From the NCBI GenBank assembly GCA_029392055.1, contig CP113928.1, positions 17,501 through 81,500 of the forward strand: a DNA stretch of 64,000 nucleotides, read 5' to 3'. Of this stretch, positions 8,350-22,014 are shown in pieces (the stretch's first letter is position 1; each line of letters starts with the position of its first letter). The notes beneath the pieces were generated by a model that did no database searches, had not been told where the DNA came from, and was given only the letters and a program-made list of their open reading frames with translations. The position numbers and the translations under genes are program-made. Source of the stretch: Leuconostocaceae bacterium ESL0723 (GTDB taxonomy: Bacteria > Bacillota > Bacilli > Lactobacillales > Lactobacillaceae).

Positions 8350-10800
8350 TTATTTGCGTAACAGCATGGCGTTAACCGCCACAATGACCGTTGATAGCGA
8401 CATAACAATCGCCCCAATCATGGGGTTTAATGTAATGCCAGCAAAGGCAAAGACGCCGGCGGCTGCTGGGATGGCAATGATGTTATAGCCAGCTCCCCAG
8501 CAAAGGTTTTCAACCTGTTTGCGGCTGGCGTGCCGGCTGAGGCTAATCAGGTCACTAATCTTAGTCAGACTAGGGGAAATCAAAACGGCATCGGCTGAAG
8601 CTTGGGCCACCTTGGTTCCGGCTCCGATGGCCACACTGAGGTTGGCCTGGGCTAGGGCTGGGGCATCATTGATACCATCTCCAATCATCATGACAGGGCC
8701 CTTGGCCTGGTATTCCTTGACCAGCTTGATCTTATCTTGAGGTGAAACCTGGGACTTAACCTCGGTGATGCTCAGTTGCTGGGCTACCCGGTTAGCCGTG
8801 GTCTGGTTGTCACCGGTCACCAAGACGGGGATGATGTGGTCGCGCTTGAGGCTGTCAATGAAGGCTTGGGCTGAATCCTTGATGGTGTCTCCCTGGGCAA
8901 TGGCGGCCAGCACCTGGCGACCATCAGTTAGGTAAGAAACCGTGGCATCACTCTTGAGAGGTTGATAATCAATGTGGTGTTCGTCTAGGTACTTATTTGA
9001 AACCAGGGCGTAATCCTGGTCCTTAATTTCACCGGTAATCCCATAGCCTGGTAGGGCTTTAACGTTCTCGGCAGTAGCGGGTGTAACCTGTTGATCCTTA
9101 GCATAGTTCAAAATTGACTGGGCCAGGGGATGACTGGATTGTTGGTCCAGACCACTCATGATGGCCAGGACCTGGTTGCGGTCAAAGTCCTGGTAAGTCG
9201 TTAGGTCCTGGACGCTGAAGTTACCATTGGTTAAGGTACCGGTTTTATCCATCAGGGCGTACTTAATGGTCTTGCTGCTAGATAGGACCGCCTGGTTATT
9301 CTTAATTAAAATACCATCCTTGGCCGCAATGGCCTTAGTCCGCTGGATAACCATTGGTACGGCCAGCCCCAGGGCGTGGGGGCAGGCAATCACCAGGGTG
9401 GTAACGGCAATGTTAATGGCATAAGAAAAACCGTTGATTGGTGTCCAGATAATCAAGGCGCCAATGGCAAAGACCAGGGCCACCCAGAACAGCCAGGAAG
9501 CCACCCGGCTGGCCAGGGTTTCTACCACTGACTTACTAGTTTGTGATGCTAGTAGGGTAGCCTGCAGCTGGCCGACAAAGCTTTGGTTACCGACCTTGTT
9601 GAGCTTGACGAGGACGGTGCCGTCGCCGTTGATGCTACCACCAATGACTGGGTCACCGACTTTTTTACTAATTAACTTACTCTCACCGGTCATCAGGGAC
9701 TCATCGACCTGGGTTTGACCGCTTTGAATTTCGCCATCGGCTGGGAAAGATTCACCGGCCTGGACTTGTACGACCATGCCGTTTTCCAACTGGCTGGCCG
9801 GCATGTCCATGAAGGTGTCGCCGTGTTTTACGTGGGCGGTATCCGGCATCAACTTCCGCAGTTCGGCGGTGGCATCACCGGCCCGCATGGTTGCAGACAT
9901 TTCAATCAAGTGGCCCAGGAGCATGATGACCGTTAAGGTCGCAAACTCCCAGAAGTAGTCCATTACGTGGGCGCCGAGGAAGGCGTTGGCCAAGAGGGCG
10001 TAAATGGAATACCAGAAGGTTACCAGCAGACCCATGCTAATCAGGCTCATCATGGCTGGCTTGTGACTTTTCAGTTCGCTCACGGCCCCGTCAAAGAAGG
10101 GCTTGGTGCCAATTAAGTAGAGAGCAATCGACAAAACGGCGGTCACCCACTGGCTACCAGGGAAGGTGATTGTGAAAGGTAAAATCATGCCCATAAAGGG
10201 AGTGATGATGACGATAATGACCATCAGACTCAGGGACCACCAGAAGCGGCGGCGCATGTCACCCATATTCATGCCGGCCATACCAGCCATGCCATGCATC
10301 CCGTGCATGCCACCCATGTCGTGACCCATGTCCATGCCACTCATATCATGACCGCCATGCTGGTCCATATCCATCCCGCCCATGTCATGGTCACCGGAAT
10401 GGTTCATGTCCATGTTGCTCATGTCATGACTGCCAGAATGAGAATGCTGCATGTTCATGCCATTCATGTCGTGGCTACCATGTTGTTCCATGTTCATGTT
10501 ACCCATGTCATGGTCGTTTTTCTGGGTACCTTGCTGGTGCTGGCCCATGTCACCGTGGTCATGATTCATGTTCATGTTGCTCATGTCATGGTGACTGTCG
10601 TGGCCCATGTCCATGCCAGCCATGTGATTGTGATGATTAGCGGAAGCATCATGGTCCGAACTGTTTTTATGGTTCATGTCCATCTGCCCGTGATGGTCAG
10701 CATCCTGGTGCTGGGCCATTTGGTCACTGCTAAGGTCGTGGACGTCTTGGGACTTTTGGTCATCCATCCCCGGCATCTGATCTATATCTTTTTTGGTCAT
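8350..10800 (-). CDS. copB: CopB-type copper-translocating P1B ATPase with Met/His-rich N-terminus
   Basis: This 816-residue membrane ATPase has all P-type landmarks: TGES actuator loop, the membrane metal site CPH ('ACPHALGLAVP'), the phosphorylation motif DKTGTLT, the P1B-specific 'SSHPLA' and the hinge 'GDGINDAPAL'. CPH rather than CPC marks the CopB-like (P1B-3) subclass that exports copper or silver from the cytoplasm. There is no CXXC heavy-metal domain. Instead about 180 N-terminal residues consist of repeats such as GMDMGHD and HDMSNMNM, which should bind Cu(I) through Met and His. RBS ggaaagg lies 8 nt before the ATG. No CopY-like operator or copZ is seen nearby. Confidence 0.92.
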   Translation of the reverse strand: MTKKDIDQMPGMDDQKSQDVHDLSSDQMAQHQDADHHGQMDMNHKNSSDHDASANHHNHMAGMDMGHDSHHDMSNMNMNHDHGDMGQHQQGTQKNDHDMGNMNMEQHGSHDMNGMNMQHSHSGSHDMSNMDMNHSGDHDMGGMDMDQHGGHDMSGMDMGHDMGGMHGMHGMAGMAGMNMGDMRRRFWWSLSLMVIIVIITPFMGMILPFTITFPGSQWVTAVLSIALYLIGTKPFFDGAVSELKSHKPAMMSLISMGLLVTFWYSIYALLANAFLGAHVMDYFWEFATLTVIMLLGHLIEMSATMRAGDATAELRKLMPDTAHVKHGDTFMDMPASQLENGMVVQVQAGESFPADGEIQSGQTQVDESLMTGESKLISKKVGDPVIGGSINGDGTVLVKLNKVGNQSFVGQLQATLLASQTSKSVVETLASRVASWLFWVALVFAIGALIIWTPINGFSYAINIAVTTLVIACPHALGLAVPMVIQRTKAIAAKDGILIKNNQAVLSSSKTIKYALMDKTGTLTNGNFSVQDLTTYQDFDRNQVLAIMSGLDQQSSHPLAQSILNYAKDQQVTPATAENVKALPGYGITGEIKDQDYALVSNKYLDEHHIDYQPLKSDATVSYLTDGRQVLAAIAQGDTIKDSAQAFIDSLKRDHIIPVLVTGDNQTTANRVAQQLSITEVKSQVSPQDKIKLVKEYQAKGPVMMIGDGINDAPALAQANLSVAIGAGTKVAQASADAVLISPSLTKISDLISLSRHASRKQVENLCWGAGYNIIAIPAAAGVFAFAGITLNPMIGAIVMSLSTVIVAVNAMLLRK
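10270..10720 (-). repeat. Met/His/Asp-rich repeats encoding the copper ATPase N-terminus
   Basis: DNA repeats built around catgtc/catgtcatg (plus strand) encode degenerate units such as HDMSGMDMGHD and HSGDHDMGGMD on the minus strand. The repeat is imperfect and in frame, so unit number could vary between strains. Confidence 0.7.
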
Positions 10801-13188: not shown

Positions 13189-14487
13189 ATGCAGCCTAGC
13201 GAAGCAACGGTATTAAAACATGTTAAAAACCAGGCACCCCAGTGGGCCGCCCTTTTAATTGCGACCGTGGTGGTTGGCGCGGTGGTCGGTTTGAGTTCCG
13301 CCCTCCTGTCCGAATTTTTGGGCGTGGTGGAACGCTTCTTCCTGCACTTTCACGAAAGTTTACACCAGCCTGTTGCGAGTTCGGTGCCATCGTTGCGCCG
13401 TCTGGGTGCCGTCTTTTTAGGGGGCTTAATTGCGGCTGCTGTCTGGTGGTGGCAGCGGAACCGGCTGCGGCCCTTTGTGGGCATTAAGGGCGCCTTGCAG
13501 GGGAAAACCATGCCAGTTGGCAGCACGGTGGTCAATGTTTTGACCCAGATTTTCTATGTTGGGACCGGCGGTTCGGTTGGACGGGAATTAGCGCCCCGGC
13601 AGGCCGGAGTAATGCTGGCCCAACGCTGGGAAATGCTCAGTCAAAAAATCGGCCTGGCCGAACTCAGTGATACCGACCGTAAGTTGATTTTAGCTTCGGC
13701 GGCCGGCGCTGGTTTTGCTGGGGTTTATATTGCCCCCTTTACCGGCATGCTCTTTGCCGTTGAAATGTTATTGAAAAAAATTACGGTAAAAACTGTTTCG
13801 ATTAGTCTGGTAATGTCGGTAGTAGCCATGGCGGTCGGTGCCCTGGCCAAGGGTTATGGTCCTTACTATTCTCTAGCGGACATGCACTTTTCCCACGCGA
13901 CTTGGATCCTAGTGATTTTGCTAGGACCGCTGGCCGGACTCCTCGGCGGTCTGGGCCGCCGGGCCTTCGCCTGGGCTGAAGCGTACCAAACCCAGGGTCG
14001 GGGAATTTTTTGGCAGTTGCCCCTAGCGGCCGGTCTGACCAGCTTGATTGCCATGGCCTTTCCAGCCATCATGGGTAACGGTCGGGGGATTGTGCAACTC
14101 GCCATCGACAGTCATCCGGCCGTGGTTGGTATCTTACTAGTTGGTGGACTGGCTAAGCTGGTCATGACGGTCGGGACGATTCGGGCCGGCGCAGCCGGCG
14201 GGACCTTGACTCCGGCCATTGCCCTGGGGGCAGTCGTGGGTGTGGCAGCGCTTACCCTGGTCCACCCTTGGTTTATGGCCGTGCCTTTTGGACAGGCGGC
14301 CATCTTGGGTGGGGCCTGTTTCCTAGCGGCTTCTCAACAGGCACCGCTGATGGCCATGTTGATGATGTTTGAAATTACCCACCTGGACTATTCCGCCATG
14401 ATGCCCCTTAGCCTGGGCGTTGCTCTGGCTACACTGGCTTCCCAGCTAGTAGTTGCGCCACAAGAACGGTTACGCTGGTGGGGTTAA
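13189..14487 (+). CDS. ClC-family chloride channel/transporter
   Basis: About 432 residues with ten or more hydrophobic segments. The ClC core is visible: 'GTGGSVGRELAPRQAG' (about residues 125-140) replaces the usual GREGP filter loop with GRELAP, and 'GAAGGTLTPAIALGA' matches the GxFxP region. Such proteins move Cl- or F- or exchange Cl-/H+; the departure from GREGP makes ion selectivity uncertain. The start at 13189 follows an aggagg box by 7 nt; the upstream TTG is disfavoured. It lies 17 nt after menG and may be in the same operon. Confidence 0.8.
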   Translation: MQPSEATVLKHVKNQAPQWAALLIATVVVGAVVGLSSALLSEFLGVVERFFLHFHESLHQPVASSVPSLRRLGAVFLGGLIAAAVWWWQRNRLRPFVGIKGALQGKTMPVGSTVVNVLTQIFYVGTGGSVGRELAPRQAGVMLAQRWEMLSQKIGLAELSDTDRKLILASAAGAGFAGVYIAPFTGMLFAVEMLLKKITVKTVSISLVMSVVAMAVGALAKGYGPYYSLADMHFSHATWILVILLGPLAGLLGGLGRRAFAWAEAYQTQGRGIFWQLPLAAGLTSLIAMAFPAIMGNGRGIVQLAIDSHPAVVGILLVGGLAKLVMTVGTIRAGAAGGTLTPAIALGAVVGVAALTLVHPWFMAVPFGQAAILGGACFLAASQQAPLMAMLMMFEITHLDYSAMMPLSLGVALATLASQLVVAPQERLRWWG

Positions 14488-14583
14488 ATTCGCAAACAGC
14501 GGACTAGTATTCAATTGTCTTTACGATTTTTAGTGGGCGGCTACTCGCTAAAATTACAAGTTAAATTCATCATTTGAGCCTAA

Positions 14584-14600
14584 TTTACAGCCTAATTACA
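14584..14600 (-). promoter_or_regulatory. WalR-like direct repeat overlapping a terminator
   Basis: Read on the minus strand: TGTAAT-TAGGC-TGTAAA, an exact fit to TGTWAH-N5-TGTWAH. Its left half on the plus strand also forms the left arm of the terminator hairpin at 14590-14635, so the match may be fortuitous. It lies about 130 nt upstream of the surface protein gene. Confidence 0.25.
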
Positions 14601-14635
14601 CCAAGATTAAACCTTGATGTAATTAGGCTTTTTTA
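14590..14635 (+). terminator. Rho-independent terminator after ClC gene
   Basis: GCCTAATTACA (14590-14600) pairs with TGTAATTAGGC (14618-14628), followed by six T. Confidence 0.85.
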
Positions 14636-14726
14636 ATTGAACTTTCAGACTCCTCAGTAAATAATAAGGTCAAGCGTCAGCTTGGCATAATTGACATGTT
14701 GGCCTGACGAGAGGAGGTAGACAAGA

Positions 14727-15557
14727 GTGAAAACAGATATCAAGAATTCGGTTGTACCCAAGGCGGTCTGCCCGACGGTCCTAGCTGCTTTGTTTGGGCT
14801 GTCTTTGATGACATCCACGCCAGTAAAGGCCGACGATACCAAGGATTTACAGCCCTTTAATGCGGATACTTCAGCCAGTTCATCGGCTGCTTTGCAGCCC
14901 TTTACAGCTGATAGTGGCGTGAATACCAGTGTGACCGTTACCAATGCGCAACTGGCAAGGGCTCGTGCTGCTAGTTCCAGTAAAGCGACGGTACCAGCCC
15001 AGGGCCCTGCTGTGACCCAATCAGTGCGGCCTGACACCTCAGCTAATTCAACGCAACCAGCTGCTACGGCAGCTCAACCAGTCCAGTCGCTAGCCCAAAG
15101 TGGTTTAACTAGTGGCCCCTTGCCCAGTGTGTTAACTGGTCTGGATAGCTTTAATAATCAGGCTGAAGATAGGCTAAATCAGTTTGCTGCCGCCACCCAG
15201 GGACAGGGTAAGGGCACAATTAATCCTGCTTCAGTAAACACAGATGGTTTGGTTCACTCGCAAATTGGCAGTCAGGGTGCCAAGGTTGATCAATTTTATA
15301 ATCCAGTAACCAAGTCACTGAGCCTGGTTTTGAATGGCCGGCTAGTAACGATTAATAATGGCGATTATGCCGTTGTTGTGGGAACCGATGGTAAGCGTTA
15401 CCGGGTCTTTAATCCTGGTAGTGGTAATGCGGCCGTTCAAGAGATTCCTGCGCCTGACGATCAGCCAACCAGTGGTGGGTATGATTCAGTGGCTAAGACC
15501 AATCAGGGTGTGGCTATATTAAGCCTTATTCGGATGCACCCTTCGAGAACTTCTTGA
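14727..15557 (+). CDS. Secreted repeat-domain surface protein, N-terminal part before a frameshift
   Basis: 276 residues as it stands. GTG start with gaggagg 9 nt upstream. A Sec signal peptide covers about residues 1-35 (ending near PVKADD), followed by two copies of an (L/I)QPFxAD(S/T) motif, a Ser/Ala/Thr-rich linker and one copy of a ~55-residue domain ('DQFYNPVTKSLSLVLNG ... VFNPGSGNA'). The last 15 or so residues are out of frame. Alignment to the paralogue at 19516 shows one base missing between 15509 and 15510: the paralogue's GSGY codons would be restored by one extra A. The original product ran on into the frame that ends at 19165. Either a pseudogene, a phase-variable or programmed shift, or a sequencing error. 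Confidence 0.8.
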   Translation: MKTDIKNSVVPKAVCPTVLAALFGLSLMTSTPVKADDTKDLQPFNADTSASSSAALQPFTADSGVNTSVTVTNAQLARARAASSSKATVPAQGPAVTQSVRPDTSANSTQPAATAAQPVQSLAQSGLTSGPLPSVLTGLDSFNNQAEDRLNQFAAATQGQGKGTINPASVNTDGLVHSQIGSQGAKVDQFYNPVTKSLSLVLNGRLVTINNGDYAVVVGTDGKRYRVFNPGSGNAAVQEIPAPDDQPTSGGYDSVAKTNQGVAILSLIRMHPSRTS

Positions 15558-18500
15558 CGGATGCCAGTAATTTCTTTGGTGATCAAAAAGTTACCAATAA
15601 CCAGTCAAATGGGGTAGTTGCCAATCCAAGGCACTTTTCTAATAACCTGGAGGCGGCTAACAGTCTGCGACTGACCCGTCCCATCGATAAGATGGTTTTG
15701 GGCGCGGCCCAGCTGATGGGGGATGTAAAGCAGCCAGCTAATACAAAGGGGCAAGACTCAGTTAAGCCAGCCACCTATGCCATTACCGATTTAGGTAACA
15801 ACAGTAAAAACTTAGTTAGTGGCCAGTTTAATAATCCAAATTTGGTGCACACCAACTTGGTCAATCAGGGTGTTCCGATGGAACAGTACTTTGACCCCAG
15901 TACCAAGGCGCTAAGTTTGGTCATGAACGGCCGGGCCGTGACGATTAGTGACGGCGATTACACGGTTGTGGATGGATCAAACGGCATCAAGTACATGGTC
16001 TTTAATCCAGGAACTGGCAGTGCGCTCTTACAAGATGCCAGCTTCGCAGAGCAAAAGGCCGCCGCTGACCAAACTGAAATTAGTGTTGCGAATAACTTCC
16101 TACCTAGTATCGGTGTTTCGGCAATTTTGACGGTTGATAGCGTGCTACAGGCAATTAGTAATGTCACCATTGGTGCCATTGACGCTGCTTGGACGGCACT
16201 GAACGTGGTAGGCTTTGGCATTGGAACTTTCTTTAGTGGCCTGGGCGATACTTTCTGGATTGGTGTGCCAATTCAATCTGCGGTTATGGCTTCTTTTGCG
16301 GCTCAAGTTGCCTTCCGTGAGGCATGGCGTTTGGCTGACAATGCCCGTCGTGCTGCGCTTTATAGTTTGATTGGTGGCATTGTAGGGCCTTCATATGTGG
16401 CGCAGGTAGCCAATAACTACAACACCAACCGGATTGCTAATGGTACTAAACAGGACAATGACGCAGCTCTTGCAGCTACGCGCCAACCAACCCCCCAGAT
16501 TTCGAGCCTTGGCAGCTCGGCACAGCCTTACGGCGCTGGTGGGGCTAACGACCCTGCAAAAAACACTAGCCTGAAGCCTACGACTCTGGCTAACGGTAAT
16601 ACGCCGATTAACCAGTACTTTGACCCTCAGAGCAAGGCTTTGACGCTGACCCTAAACGGGCAACAGGTCACGATTCCAAATGGAAGTGTCATCACTGTTG
16701 CGGGCCCTAATGGTCAGCAGTATCAAATTGGCAATCCGGGAACTGGTAATGCGATGTTAAACACTGGTAAGCCAGGAACGCAGCCAGGTTCGACGCCAAC
16801 ATCCACTAATCCTCAATCGAATAATGGCCAAGGGAACAATCCGATGACTAGTGAATCTAGTTCAGGAAATAGTCAGCCAAACGGTGGTATTGCGAACCCA
16901 ACTAGTAATGGTGCTGAGCCAAGTGGTAATGGAGCCAGTGGTCAGCCCAATACACCAGCTGGCAACCCCACTACACCTAGTGGTAATGCAGGAAGTCCTA
17001 GTGGACAGCCTGGATCTCCGGCCGGCAGCCTAGGGAACCCTGGCAGTTCGAACACGTCAAATGGAACTCCAGGTAATCCTAACGGTCAACCCGGCGCACC
17101 AAGTGGCACTCCCGGAGTGCCAAACGGAAATCCTGGCACATCAGCCGGGAATGGCCCACAGCCTAACGGTAGCGGGTCAAATAGTAACAATCCAGCTGGA
17201 CCTAGTGCCGGCATGCCATCTGGGAATGGCCAGGGCAGTAGCCAGTCAAACGGTAGTGCGACAACACCGAATGGCAGCAATGCCCAGCCTGGTGGTACGG
17301 GATTAAATGGTAATCCGGCTGGACCTGGTGCAAGCGGTAATGCCGGTAGCCCATCTGGAAACGGACAAAGCAGCAATCCGGCTGGCGGACCTGGTTCTGG
17401 AAATGAGCCCAATGGTGGCAATCCAACCCCAACTGGTAGCGAATCAACTGGTCAACCTGGAATGTCTGGTAGTAACCTGGGCACCCCAAGTGGCCAACCA
17501 GTGGCACCAAACGGTAATGCGGGAGCTCCCGGAGGAAATCCCGGCAACCCTGCTGGCCGACCCGGTAATCCTGGAACACCAAGTGGCCAACCAGTGGCAC
17601 CAAATGGTAACCCAGGTACTGCTGGTAGTCCTAGCACTCCAAGTGGTAATCCTGGAACGTCAAGTGGCCAACCGGTGACACCAAACGGTAACGCGGGAAC
17701 GCCTGGAGGAAATCCCGGTAACCCTGCTAGCCAACCCGGAAACTCAGGAACACCCGGTGGACAGCCAAGCACTCCAGGTGGTAATCCGGGAACGCCATCA
17801 ATTCCTGGTGGTACATCCGGCACCCCTGGCGGCAATCCTGGAACACCAAGTGGCCAACCAGTGACACCAAATGGCAACCCAGGTAACGCTGGTACTCCTG
17901 GTAACCCTAGTGGTCAGCCAAGCGCGCCGGATGGTAATTCGGTTACACCATCAACCCCAGGCGGTGTACCAGAAACTCCTAATGGTCAACCGGGTGCACC
18001 GAGTGGTACCCCTGGAACGCCAGGCGGAAATCCAAGCATCCCAAGTGGTAACCCCGCAGTACCAGGCAGTCAACCTAGCACGCCGGGCGGAATCCCCGGC
18101 ACCCCTGCTGGCCAACCAGGACTCCCAGCCAGCAACCCAGGAACACCTGGTGGACAACCAAACACCCCAGCCGGCAACCCAGGACTACCAGGCGGAAATC
18201 CAAGCGTCCCAAGTGGCAACCCCGTAATACCGGGTAGTAACCCTGGCACGCCGGGCGGAAACCCCGGAGTTCCCGCTGGCCAACCAGGAATTCCAGGCGG
18301 AAACTCAGGAACACCAGGCGGACTACCTGGCACCACAAGTGGCCAACCAGGACTACCAGGAGGCATCCCCGGTACCCCAGGTGGAACCCCTGGAATACCC
18401 GCAGTACCAGGCGGCGTAACCCCTGGCGTACCAACCATTCCAGGCGCCCCAGTTGTGCCAGGCACTCCCGGCATTCCAGCCGTACCTGGCGGTGTCCCTG

Positions 18501-19165
18501 GAATCCCAGCTGTACCAAATATCCCGGCTGTACCAGGTGCACCGGTTGTGCCGGTTATTCCGGGTGTTCCAACGGTACCTGGCCTGCCTAATATTCCAAG
18601 CGCTAATTGGATTCCAATGCAACCATTGGTACCAATGGTGCCTGGCGCACCAGCTCTTCCCGGTGTGCCAACAGTTCCAGGAATCCCTGCGGTTCCAGGT
18701 ATCCCGGCCATTCCAGGACTACCGATTACAATTCCAGCAACGGTTAACAAGCTTGCGGGTCAGGCAACTGGAACGGTCCTGATTGACGGCGCCTTAATTG
18801 CTTCCTATCTGGCTGGTGATACCCTGGCTAATGCCGCTAGTGAGGCTGTTTGGCTGCCGTTAAATGCGGCGGTCGATGGGGCTACTTTAGCTTCAGGAAT
18901 TGGCGCTGCTGTCTTTGGTAACTTTGACTGGAGTCTGGGCTACATTGCTGAGCCAACTTTGGGACCTCTGACCATCGCTGGTATGATTGCTGGTTCGGCA
19001 CTTTATGACGCTGAAAACGTAGTTGATGACGCCCGACGCTTGGCTGAAAAGACCGCTTTGATTAGCGCTTTAACGGTCACAAACACGGCCCGTCTAATTC
19101 AAATGTATGATACCGTTGTTAATGCAGCGAATACAGGCAACGCAGTCGTATCTATGTTAGTTTAA
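15554..19165 (+). CDS. Surface protein body with Pro/Gly heptad repeats (frameshift-separated part)
   Basis: 1203 residues from an internal ATG, without a signal peptide or RBS of its own, so probably not translated separately. Order: a '[18 protein letters not shown]' segment shared with the paralogue; a second ~55-residue domain (about residues 95-165); an Ala/Ile/Val-rich helical stretch (about 175-300); a third copy of the domain (about 330-400); about 640 residues of Pro/Gly repeats; and a hydrophobic helical C-terminus of about 150 residues that again matches the paralogue. No LPXTG, LysM, SLH or GW module is seen, so how it attaches is unknown. No named family recognised. Confidence 0.75.
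16934..18735 (+). repeat. Pro/Gly-rich 7-residue repeats turning into Pro-every-third triplets
   Basis: From about 16934 to 18400 the protein is built of 21-nt units coding for a heptad of the form (G/S/A/N)G(N/Q)PGTP, for example [21 protein letters not shown]. From about 18380 to 18735 it changes to a three-residue period with Pro in every triplet (IPA-VPG-IPA). It resembles collagen-like proteins at first sight but lacks strict Gly-X-Y. Confidence 0.85.
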
Positions 19166-19208
19166 TAAATAGGGTTCATTATTCTCTTAGATGACACCCT
19201 TAAAAGAT

Positions 19209-19242
19209 CACTCCTACTATTAATGGTGGGAGTGGTTTTTTA
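19209..19242 (+). terminator. Rho-independent terminator after repeat protein
   Basis: CACTCCTACTATT pairs with AATGGTGGGAGTG (including G-U pairs), followed by GTTTTTTATT. Confidence 0.8.
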
Positions 19243-19337
19243 TTGAATTTCATTAGCGTGGTCCGAAAGCAGTTGGTTTGTACACAACTGAATTAGCATT
19301 GCCGAACTTTTACACGCTTATCCACGACTTAGTTCGG

Positions 19338-19366
19338 AGCCCGGTTATTAAAACCGGGCTTTTTAA
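19338..19366 (+). terminator. Second, orphan terminator
   Basis: AGCCCGGTT-ATTAA-AACCGGGCT followed by TTTT, about 95 bp beyond the first terminator and with no gene between them. Confidence 0.7.
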
Positions 19367-19515
19367 TTTAGAATCGGCAAAAAGTTCAAAATACTTGAAC
19401 GTAAAGCCCTTTATTTGAAAAATATGTAGGTTAAATCGTTGTATATTTCACCAAAGTTGTGTGATAATAAGGTAAGTGCTTTAGGGTAAAGCACAAAAGA
19501 ATTTAGGAGGAAATT

Positions 19516-21192
19516 ATGGGGGCAATCAAAGCTGTTTCTAAAACAGCGCTTGTAGCCTTGCTAGGTTTCGGCCTGTTTGCATCTGTGCAAGCTAGTGCCG
19601 ATTCTGGCGATTTGCAGCCCTTCACTGCGGATTCGACTTCGAATCCTTTGCAGGAAATCAAGCCTTTCTCGGCTGATACTGCCGGTGATAACACTGCATA
19701 CGCTACGCCTGATACTACCGCCCAGTCTTCAGCAACAACTACTGCTGCTAAGACTAACCAAGGTAGTGGTTATACCAAGCCCGATTCAGATGTTCCATAT
19801 GAGAATATCTTGACTAGTGCAAGTAACTTCTTTGGTGATCCAAAGGTTACGAACAACCAGTCAAACGGCGTGGTAACTAACCCCAAGTCATACAGCAACG
19901 ATGTTGACGCCGCGAACGACTTACGTCAAGTTCAACCCGTCGACACTGCTACGTTGGCCGTAGGTAACTTGCTTGGTGATGTCAAGAATCTTGACAGCAA
20001 CAACAAGCAAACCACTGTTAACAAGGCACCGTTTGCTGTCACTGGATTAGGTGCTAACAGTAAAGACTTAAGCGCAAGTCAATTTAACACTGCTGGCTTG
20101 ACCCATACACAATTGAGTAACAATGGTGGAACTGCTGTTGATCAGTACTATGATCCAGCAACGAAGGCATTGAGCTTAGTTATGAATGGTAAGGTTGTTA
20201 CCATTAGTAACGGTGACTACACTGTAGTTAGCGGTTCTGATGGTAAGCAGTACAAGGTGTTCAATCCAGGTACTGGTAGTGCACTAGTACAGGATGAGAG
20301 CTTTGCGGAAAAGAAGGCCGCTGCTTCTGAAGCAGAGACCATGGTCGCAAACAACATCTTGCCTAAGGCTGCCGTTACTGGCATCCTGCTCTTGGATAGT
20401 GCTATCCAAGTTGTTTCAAACATCGCAATTGGAGTTATCGATGCAGTCTGGACTGCTATCAACTCAGTTGCCTTTGCAATCGCAAGTATTGCAACGGGAA
20501 CTTGGTTCGGTGCATTGGGAGGAATCCCAGCCCAGGCAATCATCGGAATTTCATTTGCCGCTCAGGTAGCATTCCGTGAAGCATGGCGTGCGGCTGATGA
20601 AGCCCGTCGTGCAGCACTGTATGCCCTGATTCCAGCCCTGATTGGTCCAGCATATACTGCCCAGCTTATTAACAACTACAACACTAACCGTGTTGCAAAT
20701 GGTACTAAGCAGGACAACGAAGCTGCTACTGCAGCAAATGCTTCAACCAAGGCAATCACTGAGCCAAACACTGTTAACAAGGAAGCTGAGAAGGCTTCAG
20801 CTGCAACTATCGCAGATGCAACCTTTATCACTTCTTACCTCGTTGGTGACACCATCGCTAATACTATTGGCGAAGTTGCTAACGTAACTACTAACGTTGC
20901 TTTGGCCGGTGCAACCGGTGTTGTTGGTGCCGTGACCGCAGGTCTTGGTGCTATCCCTATCGCCGGTGCTGTTGCTCAGGCAATTGGTGCACCTATCGCT
21001 ATCGCTGGTGACATCGCTGGTTCTGTACTCTATGATGCACAGAACGTTGTTGGTGACACTCGCCGCGCTATCGAAAAGGCATACCTCATCGGTTCACTTT
21101 GGGCTACTAACACTGGCCGCGTTGCTGATATGTATCACGACGTAATCGATGCAGCTAACAACGGTCAAGCTACTGTTTACAAGTTGGCTTAA
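19516..21192 (+). CDS. Secreted surface protein, repeat-less paralogue
   Basis: 558 residues. Signal peptide at about residues 1-29 (…VQASADSG), two (L/I)(Q/K)PFxAD motifs, the '[18 protein letters not shown]' segment, one ~55-residue domain ('[17 protein letters not shown] … [12 protein letters not shown]', about residues 205-260), then two Ala/Ile/Val-rich amphipathic or membrane-prone stretches separated by a short linker. It is colinear with the broken protein encoded from 14727 but lacks the Pro/Gly repeat and two domain copies. Codons are strongly of the preferred set (GCT/GCA, GTT, AAC, ACT), as in phosphoketolase, suggesting very high expression. RBS aggagg 5 nt before ATG. No anchor motif. 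Function unknown. Confidence 0.8.
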   Translation: MGAIKAVSKTALVALLGFGLFASVQASADSGDLQPFTADSTSNPLQEIKPFSADTAGDNTAYATPDTTAQSSATTTAAKTNQGSGYTKPDSDVPYENILTSASNFFGDPKVTNNQSNGVVTNPKSYSNDVDAANDLRQVQPVDTATLAVGNLLGDVKNLDSNNKQTTVNKAPFAVTGLGANSKDLSASQFNTAGLTHTQLSNNGGTAVDQYYDPATKALSLVMNGKVVTISNGDYTVVSGSDGKQYKVFNPGTGSALVQDESFAEKKAAASEAETMVANNILPKAAVTGILLLDSAIQVVSNIAIGVIDAVWTAINSVAFAIASIATGTWFGALGGIPAQAIIGISFAAQVAFREAWRAADEARRAALYALIPALIGPAYTAQLINNYNTNRVANGTKQDNEAATAANASTKAITEPNTVNKEAEKASAATIADATFITSYLVGDTIANTIGEVANVTTNVALAGATGVVGAVTAGLGAIPIAGAVAQAIGAPIAIAGDIAGSVLYDAQNVVGDTRRAIEKAYLIGSLWATNTGRVADMYHDVIDAANNGQATVYKLA

Positions 21193-21345: not shown

Positions 21346-22014
21346 ATGCGCATTAATGTTTTGCAACATACCCCAAACGAAGGTCCGGGAGCCATTCAAA
21401 CCTGGGCCGATCAACGCGGTCACGAGGTCTTCATTTACCATCCCTACCAGTTCGGTAAGCTGCCCAGTGCTGATGAAACTGATTTCTTGGTGGTCTTAGG
21501 TGGACCCATGGGTCCCAACGATGACCTTCCCTGGATTAAGGCTGAGCGCGACCTGATTAAAACCCTCTTAGACCAGGGTAAATCAATCTATGGGGCCTGC
21601 TTTGGCGCCCAGCAAATTGCTAAAACCCTGGGTGCGAAGATTGGCAAGGCCCCAGTCAAGGAAGTTGGCTGGGCCCCGGTTTACCGTGAAACTGATGCCA
21701 TTCCGGGCCTGCCTGAAAAGGCCCTGGCCCTCCACTGGCATGAAGAGACCTTTGACCTGCCGGCTGGCAGTCAGCTTCTCTTTAGCAGCGACTTGTTGAA
21801 GAACCAGGGCTTTGTGATTGGTCATCAGGCAATTGGCCTGCAGTTCCACTTGGAACCCCAGGCAACCAACCTGCGGGAAATGGTGGTTAATGATGGCCAG
21901 TACGCCCTCGACCACAATGACCTCCACCAGGGCCCAGCTGACATTCTGGATCAACCGGTCCCAGCTGAGAACCCGGCAATCATGTTCACCCTCTTAGATT
22001 ATTTAGCCCAGTAA
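21346..22014 (+). CDS. Class I glutamine amidotransferase-like protein
   Basis: 222 residues. Class I GATase fold: oxyanion strand 'VVLGGPMGPND', nucleophile elbow 'YGACFGAQQ' (Cys about residue 85) and catalytic His in 'GLQFHLE' (about 168). These stand-alone proteins resemble the GMP synthase glutaminase half and often act on gamma-glutamyl compounds; the substrate is not evident. RBS ggaaaggtg lies before ATG 21346. Monocistronic between terminators. Confidence 0.85.
   Translation: MRINVLQHTPNEGPGAIQTWADQRGHEVFIYHPYQFGKLPSADETDFLVVLGGPMGPNDDLPWIKAERDLIKTLLDQGKSIYGACFGAQQIAKTLGAKIGKAPVKEVGWAPVYRETDAIPGLPEKALALHWHEETFDLPAGSQLLFSSDLLKNQGFVIGHQAIGLQFHLEPQATNLREMVVNDGQYALDHNDLHQGPADILDQPVPAENPAIMFTLLDYLAQ

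Follow-up and report, generated by a model that had tools for sequence, protein, structure and literature searches.

A putatively secreted Lactobacillales protein family with a duplicated helical module, and its plain and stalked members at one locus

What kind of protein is encoded by two adjacent, related genes of Leuconostocaceae bacterium ESL0723 that no library family describes, and is the larger of the two still made? Both genes, here called S and L, lie on the plus strand of the window, a stretch of 64,000 nucleotides (contig CP113928.1, positions 17,501 to 81,500; coordinates below are window positions unless a locus is named). They occupy the interval between a ClC-type channel gene ending at 14487 and a glutamine-amidotransferase-like gene starting at 21346, both labels being assigned by reading the frames. 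The smaller gene, S, is intact and shows the complete architecture, with a low-complexity stretch between its paired motifs and its SNFFGD segment:

19516-21192, plus strand: gene S, 558 aa, intact single frame
19516-19599, plus strand: predicted signal peptide, cut after ASA, by eye; hydrophobic peak 1.77
19615-19677, plus strand: motifs QPFTAD (19615-19632) and KPFSAD (19660-19677)
19822-19875, plus strand: 18-residue segment with SNFFGD
20098-20295, plus strand: beta domain
20299-20718, plus strand: helical module HR1
20770-21189, plus strand: helical module HR2

The larger gene, L, contains the same parts with two further copies of the beta domain and a long stalk. The preliminary description of this DNA had treated it as one intact large protein; it is in fact split into two overlapping frames, the first of which stops shortly past a frame change that separates beta copy 1 from the SNFFGD segment:

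14727-15557, plus strand: N-terminal open frame of L, 276 aa, GTG start; signal peptide, two QPFxAD motifs, beta copy 1
15554-19165, plus strand: downstream open frame of L, 1203 aa, TTG start, without signal peptide
14727-14831, plus strand: predicted signal peptide, cut after VKA, by eye; hydrophobic peak 1.77
14850-14912, plus strand: two QPFxAD motifs (14850-14867, 14895-14912)
15249-15443, plus strand: beta domain copy 1
15497-15515 (approximate), plus strand: frame-change zone
15566-15619, plus strand: 18-residue segment with SNFFGD
15842-16036, plus strand: beta domain copy 2
16040-16459, plus strand: helical module HR1
16565-16762, plus strand: beta domain copy 3, adjoining the stalk
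16763-18733, plus strand: stalk, 657 residues, defined by composition and tandem repeats
18737-19162, plus strand: helical module HR2

Five alignments relate L to S (E = 1e-121, 1.4e-27, 4.4e-26, 7e-15 and 4.5e-6), more than chance would give. The first L frame matches S residues 5-80 at 39% and 126-263 at 43% identity, and the second matches S residues 80-409 at 59%. Because this second match already begins at 15497, upstream of the TTG start, L is one interrupted gene rather than two. The proposed insertion of the stalk between otherwise colinear halves is confirmed, with S residues 80-409 and 413-556 aligning to L on either side of it. The stalk, found in L only and lying between HR1 and HR2, is built of Gly, Pro, Asn, Ser and Thr (24.7% Gly, 23.1% Pro) with tandem repeats and a proline spacing of 3, 4 and 7. 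It is not collagen-like, since glycine at every third position runs for at most four triplets. At 16780-18690 its third-position GC is 0.74, as against 0.41 in S, and the long open frames on both strands there are accounted for by the repetitive composition. A row for the NCBIfam model GBS_IgA_bnd_BAC (26.8 bits against a cut-off of 1700) was set aside as compositional.

Signal peptides, judged by eye in all proteins, are predicted for both S and L, as had been suggested, each with an N-terminal hydrophobic peak of 1.77. A 19-residue hydropathy peak of at least 1.6 at the N-terminus is present in S, L, the Convivina protein and the remote members L038, L037 and L056 described below, and absent in L043 and L045. 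Both proteins also carry the SNFFGD segment ascribed to them. Of the two (L/I)QPFxAD motifs attributed to each, L has both (LQPFNAD and LQPFTAD) and S has LQPFTAD, but the second S motif reads IKPFSAD, that is, KPF. Neither LPXTG nor LysM nor another known anchor was found by pattern or Pfam cut-off, in agreement with the preliminary description: the only hits of a looser LPXTG pattern were LPASN, within the stalk, and LPKAA, within S, and in Pfam S touched no family at E up to 1 and L only a sub-threshold TagH_SH3-like model. The C-termini of the two proteins (TVYKLA and VVSMLV) are not of the sortase-anchor kind, although a sortase is encoded in the genome nonetheless.

The repeated domain is present in three copies in L and one in S, as first described, but measures about 65 residues, not about 55. 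L copies 1, 2 and 3 are 62, 71 and 47% identical to the S domain, and the position of the third beside the stalk had been missed. Structure prediction was informative for this domain alone (mean pLDDT 79, six short strands), the full-length model being unusable (pLDDT 31.6). Foldseek returned nothing better than E = 0.28, the PDB fold search gave no convincing match, and the best structural overlay was fibronectin type I (Z 5.2, rmsd 1.4, 44 residues), in a tool where Z below 8 may mean a common arrangement only. Fibronectin type I modules are held by disulfides, whereas the seven beta rows contain no cysteine. Beta profiles against PDB sequences produced weak or repeat-driven rows (best E = 1.5e-4), many of them 4-bit pieces of a designed repeat protein.

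Six family rows appeared for the beta copies, one member each, and all but that for TagH_SH3-like (PF22269) were taken as chance or composition. The third L copy aligns to positions 12-43 of this model with E = 4.9e-4 in the whole frame and 5.8e-6 alone, but the scores (20.7 and 25.6 bits) lie under the cut-off of 27, the model touches one of six beta copies at E up to 10, and no ABC ATPase accompanies it; 26 genomes, own included, held no PF22269 match over cut-off. A characterised family for the beta domain, which would have contradicted the description of the domain as new, was thus not found over cut-off, nor a convincing known fold.

The Ala-rich hydrophobic blocks downstream are a diverged duplication of one helical module of about 130 residues, a relationship that had escaped earlier notice. 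When an HR1 profile was compared with an HR2 profile, each built from seven proteins (L007, L009 and L056 left out), hhalign gave a probability of 97.7 and a score of 74.9, against a maximum of 15.4 in 100 column shuffles and 18.2 for the reversed profile. Taken protein by protein, the two modules outscored every one of 500 shuffles in five of the seven; within S, 2 of 500 shuffles were equal or better, and within L the signal was weak (8 of 500). The plainest case of duplication is L056, with a score of 134 and a shuffle maximum of 60 (n = 1000). The module core of the remote members comprises a hydrophobic helix-like stretch, a SAIPxxG-like turn, a second hydrophobic stretch and a section containing an RR pair, a pattern less clearly kept in S and L.

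Hydropathy peaks of 1.6-2.8 occur in the module region of seven of the eight proteins scanned, in both modules in six of them, in line with the earlier proposal that hydrophobic helical blocks may attach to or enter a membrane; such peaks are compatible with membrane contact rather than a demonstration of it. True transmembrane helices are doubtful in L, whose modules reach 1.6 in no 19-residue window (best 1.53, in HR1), and in the Convivina protein, which reaches it in HR2 only. Given the quality of the full-length model, helices are visible just in low-confidence secondary structure. No library match over cut-off covers HR1 or HR2, and the PDB sequence search returned nothing for HR1, E = 0.53 or worse for HR2 and one row at 0.13 for S. 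In three remote proteins the model DUF575 (PF04746) touches HR2 at its hydrophobic core, with E = 0.38, 1.1 and 2.4 (8.9 to 11.5 bits against a cut-off of 25), a lead and no match:

L037:859-2466: remote member touched by DUF575
L038:934-2583: remote member touched by DUF575
L056:1069-2274: remote member touched by DUF575

The family is larger than the two members first assigned to it, comprising S orthologues in three relatives and five remote members. With S as query, 4 of 301 genomes of the taxonomic family matched, own included; the orthologues are those of Lactobacillaceae bacterium L1_55_11 (96% identical), Convivina intestini and C. praedatoris (65 and 64%), and in all three S directly follows the ClC gene. 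The remote members, at about 20% identity, come from four Lactobacillales genomes: L038 and L043, 52% identical to each other, from G087; L037 from G716; L045, with two beta copies, from G750; and L056, which has no beta domain but the modules alone with acidic linkers, from G097. Three of the five have the same order of parts, and four keep the beta domain and both modules. The proteins thus share a signal peptide (by eye) and two homologous modules, the beta domain being optional. About 2 kb downstream of L056 (L067:10159-11508) there is a transposase-like gene.

The first links from S to G087 and G716 were weak (E = 4.5e-5 and 1e-4), and the two groups were compared by profile. For the beta domain, hhalign scored the S group against the remote group at 44.4 (probability 95.9), with at most 17.5 in 60 shuffles; for the modules at 48.8 (probability 89.3), with at most 21.9 in 60 shuffles; and for the whole at 79.5, where the shuffles peaked at 25.7. 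The modules matched crosswise, HR1 of one group to HR2 of the other, which repeats can do. The genome G097 was found at E = 1.8e-57 by a wider profile that did not contain its protein, though it already included four of the remote proteins.

Distribution is sparse. A profile of the beta domain, a kind of search proposed in the preliminary description, gave hits in 11 of 397 genomes of the family; a core profile matched 3 of 395 genomes of the order and the wider profile 9 of 395 at E up to 0.01, with 1 of 15 in the genus of G087 and 2 of 105 in the family of G716. These tallies include chance hits and rest on overlapping genome samples. In the phylum, 3 of 353 genomes responded, namely the source genome and two with weak, unrelated-looking hits (L070 and L071). 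These two were rejected as unrelated by their whole frames, as were, among other weak profile hits, L027, L029 and L031 (ABC transporter ATPases), L028 (ATPase-like), L057 and L058 (xanthine-permease-like) and L059 (phage tape-measure-like); the identities were assigned by frame reading, with L030, L032, L060 and L061 left out. Plasmids gave no match for S, L038 or L037, phages none for S, and scans of viral contigs none.

No Pfam model reached its cut-off for S, both L frames, L037, L038, L043, L045 or L056, and no NCBIfam model for S, both L frames, L037 or L038, which upholds the description of S and L as a predicted secreted family beyond the library models. Nothing convincing came from PHROGs for S, L037 and L038 or from PADLOC for S, L038 and L056, and literature searches by the terms used gave no paper recognisable as treating this two-module family. 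Chance or composition was taken to explain a row for SSL4 (11.2 bits, cut-off 485) in the first L frame, several in the acidic N-terminus of L037, TopJ and a lipase among them, and one in L038. For L045 the atypical Rib domain model (PF18938) gave a sub-threshold row (E = 0.0026; 18 bits, cut-off 27) made up of two stretches, of which the better, residues 77-109, adjoins the first of the protein's beta copies; neither S nor L touches the model at E up to 1.

In general kind the proteins are familiar, being of the sort of secreted surface proteins known from lactic acid bacteria, and the duplicated module is what is uncommon. L recalls surface proteins with LPXTG and a Pro-rich stalk in its signal peptide, repeats and long Pro-rich stalk, but both S and L are without LPXTG. 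Very large extracellular proteins are reported as a trait of fructophilic lactic acid bacteria (PMC12863079); these proteins resemble S and L in being secreted and repeated and in coming from hosts with small genomes. According to that paper they have 3,000-8,000 aa, a beta-solenoid and C-terminal DUF5776 domains, whereas S has 558 aa and L about 1,480, and no DUF5776 is listed for either.

L itself is confined to one of the four S-bearing loci. The orthologous site of L1_55_11 lacks the segment that contains it:

14488-19297 (ends approximate): segment holding L, absent from the L1_55_11 site

In L1_55_11 the ClC stop and the region upstream of S lie within one contig, with nothing that corresponds to window 14487 to about 19297-19327. 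The two Convivina species lack L as well, since about 136 bases separate the ClC frame from the start of S; the absence of L from all three orthologous sites opened had not been noted before. L is 57-60% identical to every S, and S differs by about 30% between the genera (core). At core sites that differ between genera, L splits 23 to 16 (two-sided p = 0.34) with 42 matching neither, and at such sites in HR2 it splits 20 to 11 with 20 matching neither. Neither these sites nor the tree place L, which may be an ancient paralogue that survives only in this genome, a recent copy that evolves fast, or an acquisition from outside. A CCGAACT...AGTTCGG inverted repeat with a terminator-like hairpin stands at the end of the L segment (window 19298-19362; L015 about 9781-9830) and is possibly a trace of the segment's coming or going.

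Compared with L1_55_11, S has a dN/dS of 0.26, which is 4-7 times the 0.04-0.07 of three neighbouring genes, and its dS of 0.10 (19516-21189) is the lowest of the four genes compared, the neighbours having 0.21-0.34. Judged by these ratios, S is under purifying selection but loosely constrained. The low dS may reflect codon bias in a well expressed gene. A promoter scan gave only weak consensus sites and nothing above them.

What might such a protein do? An envelope-associated role for S is the likeliest, given its signal peptide, the lack of an anchor motif and the two hydrophobic helical modules, and we tentatively favour S as a surface protein that these modules keep attached to or inserted in the membrane, with L as its stalked, diverged paralogue. 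S would then be encoded by a single gene, exported by the Sec route and located in the cell envelope, as a member of a sparse Lactobacillales family. After removal of the signal peptide, its low-complexity N-terminal part and small beta domain would lie outside the membrane, while the two C-terminal helix-rich modules, each combining a hydrophobic stretch with a terminal Arg-rich helix, would hold it in or on the membrane, so that no LPXTG or wall-binding domain would be needed; alternatively, HR1 and HR2 may pack with each other. S seems to work alone, as no common neighbour gene is evident across the four larger neighbourhoods examined. In L, two extra beta copies and the 657-residue Pro/Gly stalk between the modules could let the part with the beta domains and HR1 stand away from HR2. 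If both modules sat in a single membrane, the stalk would have to form a closed loop, an oddity that counts against this reading.

Two other roles for S are less probable. Its paired hydrophobic modules, together with the patchy distribution of the family and the loose constraint on S, would suit a secreted membrane-active antagonist, bacteriocin-like or pore-forming, whose modules enter the membrane of other cells while the N-terminus and beta domain bind the target; short hydrophobic frames of 66 aa before the L037 gene and 86 aa after the L056 gene could be read in the same sense. No immunity gene is evident beside S. We consider this role unlikely, however, because the frames in the gaps beside S are only 21-65 aa long and none evidently encodes a membrane protein, because the neighbourhoods examined share no small neighbour among frames of at least 60 aa, and because no toxin family exceeds its cut-off. 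Furthermore, S keeps its place across two genera, in contrast to most bacteriocins. A passive adhesive or matrix-forming protein, with modules that self-associate outside the cell without entering a membrane and a beta domain that binds a sugar or wall polymer, is a doubtful alternative, a little easier to imagine. The resemblances of the third L beta copy to TagH_SH3-like (5.8e-6 alone) and of L045 to atypical Rib (0.0026) point that way, but the former concerns one of six copies and both fall short of their cut-offs (for Rib, 18 of 27 bits). The very large extracellular proteins reported as a trait of fructophilic relatives (PMC12863079) may also fit an adhesive.

For L, the balance is about even on whether it matters at all, or is a pseudogene or the victim of a sequencing error that leaves only S of consequence. 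The frame-change zone at about 15497-15515 contains no base more than three times in a row, and all 18 genes of the sister genome L1_55_11 that were compared, S among them, are intact in the window (18 of the 26 frames of at least 120 aa at the sister locus, leaving out 2 cut by the locus ends and 6 overlapping longer genes), which makes a break of this kind unusual for the assembly. Together with the absence of L from the three orthologous sites, these observations suit a pseudogene or an error. Conversely, the downstream frame runs for 1203 aa without a stop, which implies that the break, if real, is recent or bypassed, and the frame change is seen in one assembly, that of the single L-bearing genome of the two in the genus. 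L appears to be a stalked paralogue in decay, bypassed or misread, and in the source genome its product may no longer arise as a single secreted protein. If it is made, its modules could act as tandem membrane-inserting hairpins between which the stalk bridges two membranes or surfaces, one module sitting in the producer's own membrane and the other with the beta domains at the tip. We regard such bridging as quite improbable.

Under the favoured reading of S as an envelope-associated protein, insertion of the modules into membranes would amount to an anchoring route in lactic acid bacteria that dispenses with sortase and wall-binding domains. Independently of function, the members scanned define a predicted secreted family for which neither Pfam nor NCBIfam has a model over cut-off and PHROGs has no convincing one. 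Its duplicated module can be tested on its own, and the natural pair of plain and stalked proteins shows how a surface protein is lengthened.

Elsewhere in the window, a heavy-metal P-type ATPase-like protein of 816 aa (8350-10800, minus strand) begins with a His/Met/Asp-rich low-complexity tail of about 170 residues, which is much shorter in its C. praedatoris relative.
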